From Luteimonas kalidii (lineage in GTDB: Bacteria; Pseudomonadota; Gammaproteobacteria; Xanthomonadales; Xanthomonadaceae): a stretch of 64,000 nt of DNA. The position numbers were made by a program, and so were the translations under genes. Location of the stretch: positions 62,001 through 126,000 of the forward strand of contig NZ_JARXRO010000015.1 in assembly GCF_029887935.1 (NCBI RefSeq), read 5' to 3'. The first letter of the stretch is position 1. Each line of letters starts with the position of its first letter. The notes below the pieces were generated by a model that had not been told where the DNA came from, made no database searches, and saw nothing but the letters and a program-made list of their open reading frames with translations. Below are positions 55,437-60,790 of the stretch, piece after piece.

Positions 55437-55892
55437 TCAGGGCGTCACGGTCACCGTGCCGCGCATCAGCGACGCGTGTCCGGGGAACGAACAGAAGAAG
55501 GTGTAGGCACCGCCGGGCTCGAGCTTGCTGCCGGGCAGCGAGGCGGTCGCGGACTCGCCGCCGCCGACGAGCCTGGTCGCCGCCAGCACGCGCGCGTCGC
55601 CGGCCGGCACGTAGTTCGCCGCGGCGCCGGCCTTGATGCCGTCCTTGGCCACGGCATCGGCATCCGGGGTGGCGGTGAGCACGATGTTGTGGCCCATCGC
55701 GGCCACCGGCAGCTTGCCGGTGTGCTGCAGTTCCAGCGTGATGGACTTGCAGCCGGCCGAGACGCTGACGGTCTTCTGGTCGAACTGCATGTTGTCCCCG
55801 CCCTCGAGCTTGATCGTGCAGTTGGGCGCGGCCTGCGCGGCGCCCGCGCAGGCGAGCAGGGCCAGGGCGAGCAGGGAAGCGTGAAGGTGCAT
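55437..55892 (-). CDS. Azurin, type 1 blue copper protein
   Basis: 151 residues from the ATG at 55892, preceded by GGAG. Signal peptide LHASLLALALLACAGAAQA, then the mature protein starting APNCTIKLEGGDNMQFD. Copper ligands fit the azurin pattern: His in AAMGHNIVL, and Cys, His and Met in FFCSFPGHASLM (C-x4-H-x3-M). The disulfide Cys pair is NCTI / AGCKS. It shuttles electrons in the periplasm, for example to terminal oxidases or nitrite reductase. It lies next to remnants of a cbb3 oxidase assembly locus, one of its possible partners. Confidence 0.94.
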   Translation of the reverse strand: MHLHASLLALALLACAGAAQAAPNCTIKLEGGDNMQFDQKTVSVSAGCKSITLELQHTGKLPVAAMGHNIVLTATPDADAVAKDGIKAGAAANYVPAGDARVLAATRLVGGGESATASLPGSKLEPGGAYTFFCSFPGHASLMRGTVTVTP

Positions 55893-55983
55893 GGCGTACT
55901 CCGAGGGAGGTGGGTCGTTCCTGTGGACCGCATTGTCGCGCACCCGGCGCGCGCGCGGCTGAATCTGCGGCAGCCCACGCGGT

Positions 55984-56706
55984 TCACGGCAGCGGCCGGC
56001 AGCCGAGCGCCGCGAGCACGCCGTGCAGCGCGGGCACGCGCATCAGCCACGGTGCGGCGATGGCCAGCAGCCCCAGTGCGAGCACCAGCATCGCCGCGCC
56101 CGTGCGCAGGCCGGGGCGCTGCAGCCAGCGGCCCATGCGCTGGCCCGACCAGGTCAGCGGCAGCATCACCGGCAGGGTGCCGAGGCCGAAGGCGAGCATG
56201 GTCAGCGCGCTGTTGCGCGGATGCGCCTGCAGCCAGGCCACGGTCAGCAGGCTGAAGCTCAGGCCGCAGGGCAGCCAGCCCCACAGCGCGCCGATGCCGA
56301 GCCGACGCGGTAGGGTGTCAGCCGGAAGCAGGCGCCGCTGCAGCGGCTGCAGGAAGGCCCAGGCGCGCGTGCCGGGACGCGACAGGAAGCCGGGCAGGAC
56401 GCGCACGCCCAGCAGCCGCAGCGCGACCGCCACCAGCGCCGCACCGGCCAGCGCGCGCAGCGCGATGCCGAGCCACGGATTGGCCAGCAACCACACCAGT
56501 CCGTGGCCAAGGGCGCCTACCGCCAGCCCCGCCAGCGCGTAGCCGCCGATCCGTCCCAGGTTGAGCTGCAGCGCGCCGGCCCAGCCGCCGCCGGGCGCGG
56601 TCGCCGACAGTCCGGTGGCGATGCCCCCGCACATCGCGGCGCAGTGCAGTCCCCCGACCAGTCCGGCCGTGAGCGAGGCCAGCAGGACCAGCCAGTCAAT
56701 CGGCAT
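55984..56706 (-). CDS. Sulfite exporter TauE/SafE / UreH-like membrane protein
   Basis: 240 residues with about six membrane helices. The start LLASLTAGLVGGLHCAAMCGGIATG contains a Cys-His pair and a CxxxC-like motif (HCAAMC, residues 21-26) typical of the cytochrome-biogenesis/UreH-like branch found beside ccoS. A second motif is GALWGWLPCGLSFSLL. These proteins are encoded at the end of cbb3 oxidase assembly operons and are thought to handle copper. Its start overlaps the ccoS stop by 11 bp. Confidence 0.82.
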   Translation of the reverse strand: MPIDWLVLLASLTAGLVGGLHCAAMCGGIATGLSATAPGGGWAGALQLNLGRIGGYALAGLAVGALGHGLVWLLANPWLGIALRALAGAALVAVALRLLGVRVLPGFLSRPGTRAWAFLQPLQRRLLPADTLPRRLGIGALWGWLPCGLSFSLLTVAWLQAHPRNSALTMLAFGLGTLPVMLPLTWSGQRMGRWLQRPGLRTGAAMLVLALGLLAIAAPWLMRVPALHGVLAALGCRPLP

Positions 56707-56911
56707 CGGGCGTCCGGAGCGACGTCGATGGCGAGGTCGATGAGCTCGACAAGATCGTGCTGCGACGCGGCGTGTCGTCGTCGTTGGTGAGGATGTCGAG
56801 CGCGGGCGTGTCGAGATCGTCGAACTGGCCCCGCCGCACCGTCCACACGAACGCCCACACCGCCAACCCCAGCAGCACCAGGCCGATCGGCACCAGCAGC
56901 AGGATCCTCAT
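56696..56911 (-). CDS. ccoS: cbb3-type cytochrome oxidase assembly protein CcoS
   Basis: 71 residues. One N-terminal membrane helix (RILLLVPIGLVLLGLAVWAF), then VRRGQFDDLDTPALDIL, the hallmark of CcoS, and a Ser/Thr/Asp-rich tail. CcoS is needed for cofactor insertion into CcoN. Here its ATG overlaps the stop of a ccoI C-terminal remnant (ATGA), the normal ccoI-ccoS junction, but no other cco gene remains upstream. It may now be expressed from the ars promoter. Confidence 0.92.
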   Translation of the reverse strand: MRILLLVPIGLVLLGLAVWAFVWTVRRGQFDDLDTPALDILTNDDDTPRRSTILSSSSTSPSTSLRTPDAD

Positions 56912-57048
56912 GCGTCGCGCCTCGCCAGCCGCAGCGCGTTGAGGGTGACCGCCAGGGACGAGCCGGCCATGCCCAGTGCGGCGATCCAGGGCACCAGCGT
57001 GTTACGCGACGTGCCGCAGGCGGGGTCGTGGTGGATCACCGCGCGCAT
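56908..57048 (-). pseudogene. arsC-ccoI fusion remnant
   Basis: A 46-codon frame starting 11 bp after the arsH stop. Residues 1-18 (MRAVIHHDPACGTSRNTL) are the N-terminus of a glutaredoxin-type arsenate reductase with its active-site Cys, of about 140 residues normally. The rest (VPWIAALGMAGSSLAVTLNA then LRLARRDA) is the last helix of the CcoI/FixI copper P-type ATPase, normally over 700 residues. The junction lies near 56990-57000. The stop overlaps ccoS by ATGA. It reads as the scar of a large deletion that removed most of arsC, most of ccoI and whatever lay between. Confidence 0.85.
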
Positions 57049-57059
57049 GGCCGGCCCCC

Positions 57060-57869
57060 TCAGCGGCAGCAGGCCGGGCCGTTGGCGGTCCTCGTCGCCA
57101 CCGGTCGGGCCGGCATCGGAGGCGCGGATTCGACCGTGCCCGACGCCTGCGCCAGCGCGGTGGCCGCCGCCGCGCCCTTGCGTTCGCTGTAGCGGTCGGT
57201 GAGGTAGTCGCTGCGGCCGCGGACCATCCAGGTGAACTTCACCAGTTCCTCCATCACGTCGACCACGCGATCGTAGTACGGCGAGGGCTTCATCCGCCCG
57301 TCCGCGTCGAACTCCTGCCAGGCCCTGGGCACCGAGGACTGGTTGGGGATGGTCACCATCCGCATCCAGCGTCCGAGCAGTCGCAGCGCGTTGACCACGT
57401 TGAACGACTGCGATCCTCCGCAGACCTGCATCACCGCCAGCGTGCGTCCCTGGGTGGGGCGCACCCCACCGTCTTCCAGCGGCAGCCAGTCGATCTGGTT
57501 CTTGAACACGGCGGTCGGGCTGCCGTGGCGCTCCGGGCTCACCCAGACCTGGCCTTCCGACCACAGCGAGAGTGCGCGCAGCTCCTGGACCTTGGGATGG
57601 TCGGGTGTGGTGCTGCCCTGCAGCGGCAGGCCGTGCGGGTCGAACACGCGGGTCTCGGCGCCCATCGCGCGCAGCAGGTGTTCGGCTTCCAGCGCGAGCT
57701 TGCGGCTGTAGGATTCCGGCCGCAGCGAACCGTAGAGCAGGAGGATGCGGGGCGGGTGGGAGGGGTCCGCTGGATCCAGCCGGGCCCGGTCGGGGAGCTC
57801 GAGCGTGTCGGGAGCGAGGTTGGGCAGGTCGGTCACGGGCATGGGCATTGGCTGTCTTGTTGCGGTCAT
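57060..57869 (-). CDS. arsH: Arsenical resistance protein ArsH
   Basis: 269 residues from the ATG at 57869; ATGs at 57848 and 57842 are alternatives that fit the usual N-terminus better. It is an FMN/NADPH flavoprotein that oxidises toxic trivalent organoarsenicals. Seen are the FMN-binding [60 protein letters not shown] and [16 protein letters not shown]; the C-terminal 30 residues are a variable Ala/Pro tail ending in ACC. It is divergent from arsR and formerly led into arsC, now a remnant. Confidence 0.94.
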
Positions 57870-57894
57870 GATATTTCGACTATTCTAGAAATAT
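57857..57894. promoter_or_regulatory. Divergent arsH/arsR promoters with ArsR operator
   Basis: An AT-rich inverted repeat ATATTTC (57871-57877) / GAAATAT (57888-57894) lies in an otherwise very GC-rich region. On the plus strand TTGTTG (57857-57862), an 18-bp spacer and TATTCT (57881-57886) form a promoter for arsR. On the minus strand TTGCAT (57911-57906), 18 bp and TAGAAT (57887-57882) form one for arsH. Both -10 boxes share the palindrome centre, so bound ArsR would block both. The predicted arsR transcription start falls at the ATG at 57893. Confidence 0.65.
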
Positions 57895-58243
57895 GGAAAT
57901 GAAACATGCAACCGTTGCGCTCGCCGCACTCGGTCAGGACACCCGGTTGGCCGTGTTCCGCCTGCTGGTCGAGGCCGGCCCCGCGGGACTCGCGGCCGGC
58001 GTGATCTCGGAGACCTTGTCGGTTCCGCCGGCGACGCTCTCGTTCCATCTCAAGGAGCTGGGGTCCGCGGGCCTGGTCGTCGCGATGCCGCAGGGCCGCT
58101 CGATCCACTACCGCACCGACTTCGACGCGATGCAGGAGCTGATCGGGTTCCTGACCCACAACTGCTGCGGCGGCGACGCCGCGGCGTGCCGGCCGGCGCG
58201 ATCCGCGCCGGGTGCCAGGCGTCGAAAGGCGCCAGCAGCATGA
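57893..58243 (+). CDS. arsR: ArsR-family arsenic-responsive repressor
   Basis: 116 residues from the ATG at 57893 (MEMKHATVAL); the ATG at 57899 is an alternative. Winged-helix DNA-binding domain with the recognition helix in LSVPPATLSFHLKELGSAGL (residues 43-62) and the wing VVAMPQGRSIHYRTDF. The usual ELCVC metal site of helix 3 is absent; instead a C-terminal Cys pair NCCGGD and a further Cys (AAACRPA) could bind As(III), as in the group with C-terminal ligands. Its stop overlaps the ATG of the acr3 remnant (ATGA), showing the original operon. Confidence 0.9.
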   Translation: MEMKHATVALAALGQDTRLAVFRLLVEAGPAGLAAGVISETLSVPPATLSFHLKELGSAGLVVAMPQGRSIHYRTDFDAMQELIGFLTHNCCGGDAAACRPARSAPGARRRKAPAA

Positions 58244-58441
58244 GCGCACCGGGCTCCGCCAGAACGCACACGTCGTCCGCCACGCTGGCGCAGCGACGTC
58301 TTCGAACTCGCCGTCGCCACCGCGATCGTGCAGTTCACCGTCGAGTCGGGCACCGCACTGGCGACGGTGGTGGGGGTGCTGGTCGAGGTGCCGGCGATGC
58401 TGTCGCTGGTGCGCGTGGCCAACGGGTCGCGCGGCTGGTAG
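58240..58441 (+). pseudogene. acr3 (arsenite efflux pump) deletion remnant
   Basis: The start ATG overlaps the arsR stop and reads [13 protein letters not shown] in a frame typical of an ACR3 N-terminus. From 58295 a different frame reads [20 protein letters not shown] and ends at 58441 after VANGSRGW, the last 48 residues of ACR3 (about 350 normally). The middle of about 280 codons is missing and the two ends are out of frame, so no pump can be made. Together with the arsC scar this removes the classical arsenite-efflux route. Confidence 0.85.
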
Positions 58442-58555
58442 GGGCGCGCGACCGGTGATTCGTGTCCGGTCCACCCGGATAGCGGCGCAGGCCGCAACGA
58501 CGCCCGGCCGGGGCGACGTGCCCTCCGGGTTTCCATTCACTCCATCGGACATCGC

Positions 58556-59560
58556 ATGAGTATCAGCATCGGCATCAACGGCTTCGGACGGATGGGGCGC
58601 CTGGCCCTGCGCGCGGCCTGGGGCGACCCAGGCCCGGCCTTCGTCCACATCAACGACCCCGCAGGCGACCCGGCCACGCTGGCGCACCTGCTGCAGTTCG
58701 ATTCGGTGCATGGGCGCTGGGATCGCGGCATCCGCGCGGCAGACGGCGCACTGGTGATCGACGACGTGCGCATCCCGGTCAGCCGCCACCACGACATCGC
58801 CGCCAGCGACTGGTCGGCCTGCGACGTCGTGATCGAGGCCTCCGGCAAGTTCCGCAAGCCCGACGTGCTGCAGCCCTACCTCGACCAGGGCGTGAAGCGG
58901 GTGGTGGTGACCGCGCCGATCAAGGCCGCCGGCGCGCTCGACATCGTCATGGGCGTGAACCACCAGCGCTTCGATCCCGCGCGGCACCGCATCGTGTCGG
59001 CCGCCTCGTGCACCACCAACTGCCTGGCGCCGGTGGTGAAGGCGATCCACGAGGGGCTCGGCATCCGCCACGGCAGCCTGACCACCATCCACAGCCTCAC
59101 CAACACCCAGGTGATCGTCGATGCGCCGCACAAGGACCTGCGCCGCGCGCGCGCCTGCGGCAGCAGCCTGATCCCCACCTCGACCGGTTCGGCGACGGCG
59201 ATCGCCGAGATCTTCCCCGAACTGCGCGGCCGCCTCGACGGCCATGCCGTGCGGGTGCCGCTCACCAATGCCTCGCTCACCGACTGCGTGTTCGAGGTCG
59301 AGCGCGCGACCACGGTGGAGGAAGTCAACGGACTGCTGCGCGCCGCGGCGGAAGGCGAACTTGCAGGAATCCTCGGTTACGAGGAACGGCCGCTGGTGTC
59401 GATCGACTTCCTGCACGATCCGCGCTCGGCGATCGTCGATGCGCCGTCGACCCTCGTGGTCAACGGCACCCAGGTGAAGATCTACGCCTGGTACGACAAC
59501 GAATGGGGCTACGTGAACCGCACCGTGGAACTGGTGCGGCTGGTCGGCGGGGCGGGCTGA
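58556..59560 (+). CDS. ArsJ-associated glyceraldehyde-3-phosphate dehydrogenase
   Basis: 334 residues, GAPDH fold: NAD-binding [15 protein letters not shown], catalytic Cys152 in [28 protein letters not shown] and the C-terminal [34 protein letters not shown] replaces the NDL-D motif of central GAPDH in the way seen in ars-operon copies. With arsenate in place of phosphate it makes 1-arseno-3-phosphoglycerate, which ArsJ exports. It lies 114 bp after the acr3 remnant and 3 bp before arsJ, so it is under ArsR control by read-through. Confidence 0.9.
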
Positions 59561-59563
59561 CGC

Positions 59564-60790
59564 ATGTCCGCACGGCTGTCGCCCGACGTGCGCCAGTACC
59601 TGCTGGTCACCGGCAACTACTGGGCGTTCACCCTCACCGATGGCGCGCTGCGCATGCTGGTGGTGCTGCATTTCCACCAGCTGGGCTACAGCCCGCTGCA
59701 GATCGCGTTGCTGTTCCTGTTCTACGAATTCTTCGGCGTGGTCACCAACCTCGTCGGCGGCTGGCTGGGCGCGCGGATCGGGCTCAACCGCACCATGCAC
59801 ATCGGCCTGGCGCTGCAGGTGTTGGCGTTGGGGATGCTGCTGGTGCCAGCGGCGTGGCTGACCGTCGTTTGGGTGATGGCGGCGCAGGCGCTGTCGGGCA
59901 TCGCCAAGGACCTCAACAAGATGAGCGCCAAGAGCAGCATCAAGCTGCTGGTGGCGGACGATCGCCCGGGCACGCTGTATCGCTGGGTGGCGGCCCTCAC
60001 CGGGTCGAAGAACGCGCTCAAGGGCGTCGGCTTCTTCCTCGGCGGCGTGCTGCTGACCGCGGTCGGCTTCGCGCCAGCGGTGGCGATCATGGCCGCGGCG
60101 CTGCTGCTGGTGTGGCTGGCGAGCCTGGTGTTGCTCAAGGGAGAGCTGGGCAAGGCGAGCGCGCGGCCGAAGTTCCGCGACGTCCTGTCCAAGAGCCGTG
60201 CGATCAACCTGCTGTCGGCGGCGCGGATGTTCCTGTTCGGTGCGCGCGACGTGTGGTTCGTGGTCGCGCTGCCGGTGTTCCTGTCCACCACGCTGGCCTG
60301 GGATTTCTGGCAGGTGGGCGGGTTCATGGCGGCGTGGATCATCGGTTACGGCTTCGTGCAGTCGCTGGCGCCGTACGTCACCGGACGCGATGATGCGCGC
60401 ATGCCCGGCGGGCGCGCGGCGTTCGCGTGGGGCGCGGCGCTGGCCCTGGTGCCGCTGGCGATGGCCGCGATGCTCGGCGCCGGTGTACCGCCGCAGCCGG
60501 TGCTGGTGGGCGGGCTGGCCGTGTTCGGCGTGCTGTTCGCGGTCAACTCGTCGCTGCACAGCTACCTGATCGTCGGCCATGCGGCGCGCGACGGCGTGTC
60601 GCTGGACGTGGGCTTTTACTACATGGCCAATGCGATGGGCCGGCTGCTGGGCACGGTGCTGTCGGGCTGGGTGTTCCAGGTCGCGGGAATCGGCGCGTGC
60701 CTGGTGATTTCCGGCGTGTTCGTCGCGCTGGCGGCGCTGATCGTGCGCGCGTTGCCGGCGGTGCCCAGGGCGCGGTCGGGGAGGGAGTGA
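59564..60790 (+). CDS. arsJ: Organoarsenical efflux MFS transporter ArsJ
   Basis: 408 residues with about 12 membrane helices of the major facilitator superfamily. ArsJ signatures are LLVTGNYWAFTLTDGALRML near the start, LFYEFFGVVTNLVGGWLGAR, the loop GIAKDLNKMSAKSSIKLL near residue 115 and ARMFLFGARDVWFVVALPVF. It exports 1-arseno-3-phosphoglycerate, which decays outside to arsenate. Its partner GAPDH is 3 bp upstream. With ArsC and ACR3 lost, this is the only intact arsenate-export route in the cluster. Confidence 0.94.
   Translation: MSARLSPDVRQYLLVTGNYWAFTLTDGALRMLVVLHFHQLGYSPLQIALLFLFYEFFGVVTNLVGGWLGARIGLNRTMHIGLALQVLALGMLLVPAAWLTVVWVMAAQALSGIAKDLNKMSAKSSIKLLVADDRPGTLYRWVAALTGSKNALKGVGFFLGGVLLTAVGFAPAVAIMAAALLLVWLASLVLLKGELGKASARPKFRDVLSKSRAINLLSAARMFLFGARDVWFVVALPVFLSTTLAWDFWQVGGFMAAWIIGYGFVQSLAPYVTGRDDARMPGGRAAFAWGAALALVPLAMAAMLGAGVPPQPVLVGGLAVFGVLFAVNSSLHSYLIVGHAARDGVSLDVGFYYMANAMGRLLGTVLSGWVFQVAGIGACLVISGVFVALAALIVRALPAVPRARSGRE

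Follow-up and report, generated by a model that had tools for sequence, protein, structure and literature searches.

Deletions that join the start of one open reading frame (ORF) to the end of another, with the split state being ancestral, have been named deletion-born fusions and reported across bacteria (Kaul, Rossine, Brinda and Baym, preprint 2026, PMC12803068). The cases described there include a deletion of 57.5 kb in the Lenski lines and deletions of 2 kb and 12.5 kb in the tuberculosis complex; the fusion candidates have at least 80% identity to their split relatives, and the main text of the preprint makes no mention of Luteimonas. The window analyzed here, a 64,000-nucleotide stretch of the Luteimonas kalidii genome, carries an ORF of comparable make-up that consists of the start of arsC and the end of ccoI, and the unfused state is ancestral as judged from three relatives (G021, G046 and G005) and an rpoB tree. 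The stretches on either side of the junction are 86 and 87% identical to G021, and the arsC and ccoI halves match G046 at 88% and 79%, respectively, which resembles the identity of the preprint’s candidates. Unlike the fusions described in that text, the window fusion is very short (46 codons) and sits among closely packed genes that have kept their overlaps. It is a fresh, well-bracketed case of an already described kind and not a new kind, and no description of this locus was found in the open-licence literature.

Two further systems invite comparison. In Halomonas GFAJ-1, which has been reported to be without arsenate reduction genes, homologues of ArsJ and GAPDH are reported to give arsenate efflux (PMC5930303). 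The window likewise keeps arsJ and its GAPDH gene after losing the glutaredoxin-type ArsC; however, acr3 is present in GFAJ-1 as described and broken in the window, and the state of the window arose by deletion, its sisters keeping both arsC and acr3. The other is the ccoGHIS operon for cbb3 assembly, from which the window differs in that no cbb3 oxidase is left to assemble and ccoS is an orphan.

The fusion ORF (MRAVIHHDPACGTSRNTL-V-PWIAALGMAGSSLAVTLNALRLARRDA, 46 amino acids) starts 11 bp past the arsH stop codon, and its TGA overlaps the ATG of ccoS as ATGA (Table 1). Codons 1-18 correspond to the start of a glutaredoxin-type ArsC and codons 20-46 to the last 27 residues of CcoI; Val19 is ambiguous and can be assigned to neither parent. 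In an NCBIfam search, residues 4-18 aligned with the arsenate reductase model PRK10026 at E 9.8e-4, and residues 16-41 with the last positions of the TIGR01511 copper P-type ATPase model (E 1.1e-3). In a PDB search, residues 4-19 matched ArsC structures of the plasmid type, with a best E of 0.0019, and residues 18-43 matched the C-terminus of a Cu-ATPase (E 0.55). A Pfam search of the 46-mer gave no match. Both halves are short and each scores weakly on its own; what lifts the two identities above chance is that the arms align to the arsC and ccoI genes of G021, G046 and G005, in each of which the two genes are co-oriented on one contig. The first-pass annotation had read this ORF as an ArsC start carrying a CcoI tail of about 27 residues, set between arsH and ccoS, and that reading is borne out by the ORF coordinates, NCBIfam, PDB and the relatives. 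It had also marked the ArsC-like nature of the N-terminal 18 residues as a point to be checked, and PRK10026, the ArsC structures and the alignment to arsC of the three relatives all agree with it.

Table 1 Features of the arsC-ccoI junction and its neighbourhood (window coordinates).
Feature	Position	Strand	Evidence
arsC'-'ccoI fusion ORF, 46 codons	56908..57048	-	Family searches, alignment to relatives
arsC-derived part, codons 1-18	56995..57048	-	Codon-by-codon alignment to arsC of G021, G046 and G005
ccoI-derived part, last 27 codons and stop	56908..56991	-	NCBIfam match, blastn arms, junction alignment
Deletion breakpoint interval	56991..56998	-	blastn arms, junction alignment
arsH, intact, first gene of hybrid run	57060..57869	-	TIGR02690 resist_ArsH, 375 bits, over cut-off
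ccoS (FixS), orphan, ATGA overlap with fusion	56696..56911	-	PF03597; TIGR00847 over cut-off
UreH-like/DsbD_2 membrane protein, intact, overlaps end of ccoS	55984..56706	-	PF13386, 141 bits
Azurin, after UreH-like gene, aligned in all three relatives	55437..55943	-	TIGR02695
Inverted repeat ATATTTC-10-GAAATAT at arsR/arsH divergent start, putative operator	57871..57894	.	Sequence reading
arsR-type regulator	57893..58243	+	PF12840 over cut-off; NF033788 53.1 bits, just below cut-off of 55
Second scar, within acr3, with loss of about 0.85 kb and of the reading frame	58250..58287	+	blastn, frame reading
Remnant of the acr3 C-terminus, in a different frame from the acr3 start	58287..58450	+	TIGR00832 positions 285-327
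ArsJ-associated GAPDH, intact	58556..59560	+	NF033735 over cut-off
arsJ organoarsenical efflux transporter, intact	59564..60790	+	NF033734 over cut-off

A first question is how the two genes came to be joined. In G021, G046 and G005, which belong to the same genus as the genome of the window (G000), the order is unbroken such that arsH, an intact arsC next to it and a cco cluster with the ccoI tail share one strand of a single contig. The DNA missing from the window amounts to 16,391 bp relative to G021, 17,020 bp relative to G005 and 19,789 bp relative to G046. For each of the three relatives, the left arm of the alignment stops at 56991, and the right arm begins at 56998 (G021 and G046) or 56992 (G005). 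With G021 and G046, the flanking DNA on either side aligns at 81-90%; for G005, the alignment beyond azurin shrinks to a 63-base match. With G021 as a stand-in for the ancestor, the homology at the breakpoint can be read as CGC (three bases) together with one C-to-T change, or as GCTGG (five bases) together with the loss of three bases. In a pattern search, the ccoI tails of 27 of 29 relatives (the other two gave no match) had one residue more than the window ahead of the Pro, which requires one or the other of these two small secondary changes unless the ancestor differed. The breakpoint homology is small and ambiguous. Few shared bases at a breakpoint are consistent with RecA-independent recombination at short homology.

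The gene content of the missing interval was resolved by a whole-interval family scan of G021. It comprises ArsC (TIGR00014, 131 bits, over cut-off), a chromate transporter (TIGR00937), NnrS, a DUF6522 protein, a NorB-type COX1 protein (NO reductase) with a cytochrome-c-like domain, a Crp/Fnr-family regulator, HemN (TIGR00538), CcoN, CcoO, CcoP, CcoG, FixH/CcoH and a Cu-ATPase that by context is CcoI. The intervals of G046 and G005 hold ArsC, CcoN and a COX1 gene whose score falls in the class of the NorB type of G021. COX1-family genes number three in G000 versus five in G021, six in G046 and four in G005, and two of those in each relative lie inside the interval, namely ccoN and a weaker-scoring gene that is of the NorB type in G021. 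The ccoN model has a cut-off of 583 bits and its best match in G000 scores 25, and no glutaredoxin-type ArsC (TIGR00014) is over cut-off in G000, whereas 48 of the 52 genus genomes have one. The comparison establishes the deletion, its place and its branch, and shows that ccoN, ArsC and the NO-reductase-type COX1 gene are gone; if the sister is a guide, the event would also have removed HemN, the Crp/Fnr-family regulator, the NorB-type NO reductase and NnrS. One deletion would have taken high-affinity (low-oxygen) respiration, NO reduction and arsenate reduction together.

An rpoB tree was built for 44 of the 52 genus genomes, the eight without a full-length rpoB in one piece being left out. 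G000 and G021 are sisters (100/100), joined next by G005 and G046 and then by G035, G002/G028 and G010. G000 is the sole member of this eight-genome clade without ccoN, and its position together with the presence of ccoN in the other seven places the loss on its own branch. Across the tree, ccoN presence changes six times, at least five of them on well supported branches. The gene is over cut-off in 29 of the 52 genomes, with pieces in three more (G040, G007 and G043), and ccoS occurs in 33. Only G000 has ccoS in the absence of any piece of ccoN; the other 19 genomes without ccoN are also without ccoS (three of these 19 are less than 90% complete). The loss of cbb3 is thus common in the genus, and in G000 the scar is still legible. 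Among the matches listed, which include the strong ones where a full-length match would stand, one spanning the whole fusion was found in 1 of 150 relatives and in 1 of 395 family genomes, both being G000 itself. Weak matches that run past the junction occur in G129 (residues 11-45 at 58%) and G069 (residues 2-33 at 41%, with a stop), and none of the weak matches listed covers both halves of the fusion.

Could the junction instead be an assembly error, in which the interval was passed over and arsC joined directly to ccoI? The species is represented by one genome, and its assembly is in 20 contigs, which leaves room for such an error. However, when a 16.6 kb DNA query from the G021 region was run against G000, with scoring of 40 out of 1,214 first-look candidates, high scores were obtained at the two flanks only and the best non-flank match covered 94 query bases at 77%; the DNA that would have been skipped is not found in the 20 contigs at this depth, and the genome, of 3.96 Mb, is rated 100% complete. 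The junction lies in the middle of a 232 kb contig with collinear flanks, and there is no long repeat at the joint. The arsC part also carries an Asp in place of a near-universal Asn, a change that decay accounts for and a misjoin does not. An artefact of assembly is for these reasons extremely improbable.

A more substantial alternative is that the cco, hem and nor genes disappeared in several events, the last of which left the present junction. The size of the interval differs among the relatives (16.4, 17.0 and 19.8 kb), as do the ORFs on its arsC side (G046 versus G021), the adjoining acr3 bears a deletion of its own, and ccoN has changed repeatedly in the genus, as counted above. Against this, the alignment consists of only two arms with no leftover pieces between them, a single event is simpler, and no intermediate was seen among the genomes read. 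We regard such stepwise loss as unlikely, though deserving of consideration. The first-pass annotation had proposed one large deletion from arsC into ccoI and, as a check, a search of related genomes for intact arsH-arsC and cco arrangements; such an arrangement was found in G021, G046 and G005. The large deletion stands, on the evidence of the unbroken order in these three relatives, the failure to find the lost DNA elsewhere among the candidates scored, the absence of ccoN and of the NO-reductase-type COX1 homologue, and the rpoB tree; that it was strictly a single event is less firm, as the size and part of the content of the interval vary among relatives. Its remark that nothing of ccoN is left while ccoS and its UreH-like partner remain also agrees with the ccoN model search and with the PF03597/TIGR00847 and PF13386 matches.

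Very probably, then, the junction was formed by a deletion on the G000 branch, through illegitimate recombination between arsC codon 18 and the last 27 codons of ccoI, and the fusion is its by-product. The recombination would have taken place at few shared bases, a mechanism suggested by the short homology, and the DNA lost between these two points, equivalent to 16.4 kb in the sister species G021, would have included the glutaredoxin-type arsenate reductase, the cbb3 oxidase and the majority of the genes for its assembly. The reading frame would have been kept by chance, a one in three outcome. The locus is an unusually well-bracketed natural case, with a sister in which the interval is unbroken and breakpoints placed within 8 bases.

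Does the 46-residue product do anything? The first-pass annotation had suggested that it might be a meaningful Cys peptide, and one can picture a small membrane peptide that sets the redox loop of ArsC on the last transmembrane helix of the Cu-ATPase and is kept for its action. The frame, the ATG start, a purine-rich GAGGGGG stretch upstream of it, the ATGA overlap and Cys11, the positional counterpart of the active-site Cys in ArsC, have all been kept, which favours this proposal. However, one in three deletions keeps the frame by arithmetic. Nearly all of ArsC is missing, with 18 of the 140 residues of G021 ArsC remaining and the whole catalytic domain absent, and the CcoI tail likewise comes without the catalytic P-type ATPase core. 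Over 42 codons (1-18 and 20-43), the fusion branch shows three amino-acid changes (Y6H, N8D and V33A) versus six silent ones, the outgroups disagreeing at codon 6. The position of N8D is near-constant elsewhere, Asn being present in 52 of 53 open arsC starts and His in one. These starts come from two sets: the 29 arsH-adjacent loci of the G-labelled genomes, which yielded 15 starts (14 open-frame, all Asn; 14 of 29 loci yielded none), and 80 named arsH loci, which yielded 39 open-frame starts (38 Asn, 1 His; 36 of 80 yielded none). The RNA fold of the fusion start region is no more stable than shuffled sequences (z 1.12). With the whole fusion confined to a single one of the 395 family genomes among the matches listed, this near-constant Asn changed to Asp and no sign of extra constraint, the suggestion of a meaningful Cys peptide finds no support, and a working peptide is very improbable. 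The 46-codon peptide is, as far as its sequence tells, most likely a scar and an unselected by-product.

The deletion has also brought ccoS and the UreH-like gene up against arsH. The genes arsH, fusion, ccoS and UreH-like are packed with a gap of 11 bp or with overlaps. Between 54400 and 58600, no terminator-like site was found on the minus strand and a consensus scan found no sigma-70-type promoter. Tight packing, the lack of a terminator and the inverted repeat at the divergent start, whose inner part is similar in the aligned relatives, make it likely that the four genes are co-transcribed under ArsR. They would form one run read from the arsR/arsH divergent control region, with the ATGA overlap retained, and ccoS and the UreH-like gene would come under arsenic-responsive control. 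A more elaborate proposal is that this cytochrome/copper assembly pair now belongs to an arsenic-responsive operon in which the fusion is kept as its translation carries ribosomes into ccoS, such that arsenic controls an envelope copper function no longer serving cbb3; we consider this quite unlikely.

Amino-acid versus silent changes on the G000 branch number 3/3 for ccoS (60 codons, hence few), 8/25 for the UreH-like gene, 7/5 for azurin and 14/14 for arsH, and on the G021 branch 1/1, 7/23, 3/8 and 7/12, respectively. By these counts the UreH-like gene displays no relaxation compared with the sister, which is equally expected from a recent deletion, and azurin and arsH lean toward more amino-acid changes than in the sister, on small numbers. 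The locus offers a test bed for expression rewiring by operon-fusing deletions and for the fate of orphan assembly genes. Between the UreH-like gene and azurin, G046 has an ORF that by reading resembles a truncated haemoglobin (L065 9795-10208; 27795-28208 of the joined stretch) and G005 a shorter ORF, for which there is no room in the window.

A second scar, which went unremarked in the first-pass annotation, lies on the other side of the divergent start. All that is left of the acr3 gene (58240-58458) is its start and, in another frame, a piece of its C-terminal end, and neither arm aligns well with the bases at the joint. This damage is a deletion separate from that between arsC and ccoI. 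Within one cluster, the frame was kept at one scar and lost at the other, and since the acr3 scar lost its frame, the kept frame at arsC/ccoI requires no selection.

What remains of the arsenic genes in the window after the loss of the glutaredoxin-type ArsC and Acr3 is arsR, arsH, GAPDH and arsJ, the last two intact and adjacent. In G000, no Acr3 is over cut-off, a single distant model match at 43 bits against a cut-off of 283 not being counted as Acr3, and ArsB has no match. The sole remaining gene of the ArsC fold is Spx/YffB-like (25 bits versus the 106-bit cut-off of TIGR00014), and the loss of arsenate reductase is claimed for the glutaredoxin type alone, not for every ArsC type. It might be supposed that the loss of acr3 brought about that of arsC, arsenate reduction being harmful where there is no export, but this is unsupported as a rule: 19 of the 52 genus genomes have neither ArsB nor Acr3 over cut-off (nor the large fragment seen in G007), and 16 of these 19 keep a glutaredoxin-type ArsC over cut-off. 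The reverse state is seen in G035, where Acr3 is over cut-off but no ArsC of the glutaredoxin type is.

Two observations concern the arsenic genes of G021. Between acr3 and GAPDH it has an ORF that by reading resembles a low-molecular-weight-phosphatase ArsC (L062 5481-5996), for which there is no room in the window or in G046. Although G021 is the rpoB sister, the protein of its arsJ (L062 3214-4425) is 84% identical to that of the window versus 93-95% for G046 and G005, and GAPDH follows less clearly (89% for G021 versus 93%); judging from these identities, arsJ of G021, and less clearly its GAPDH gene, may have been replaced by gene transfer.
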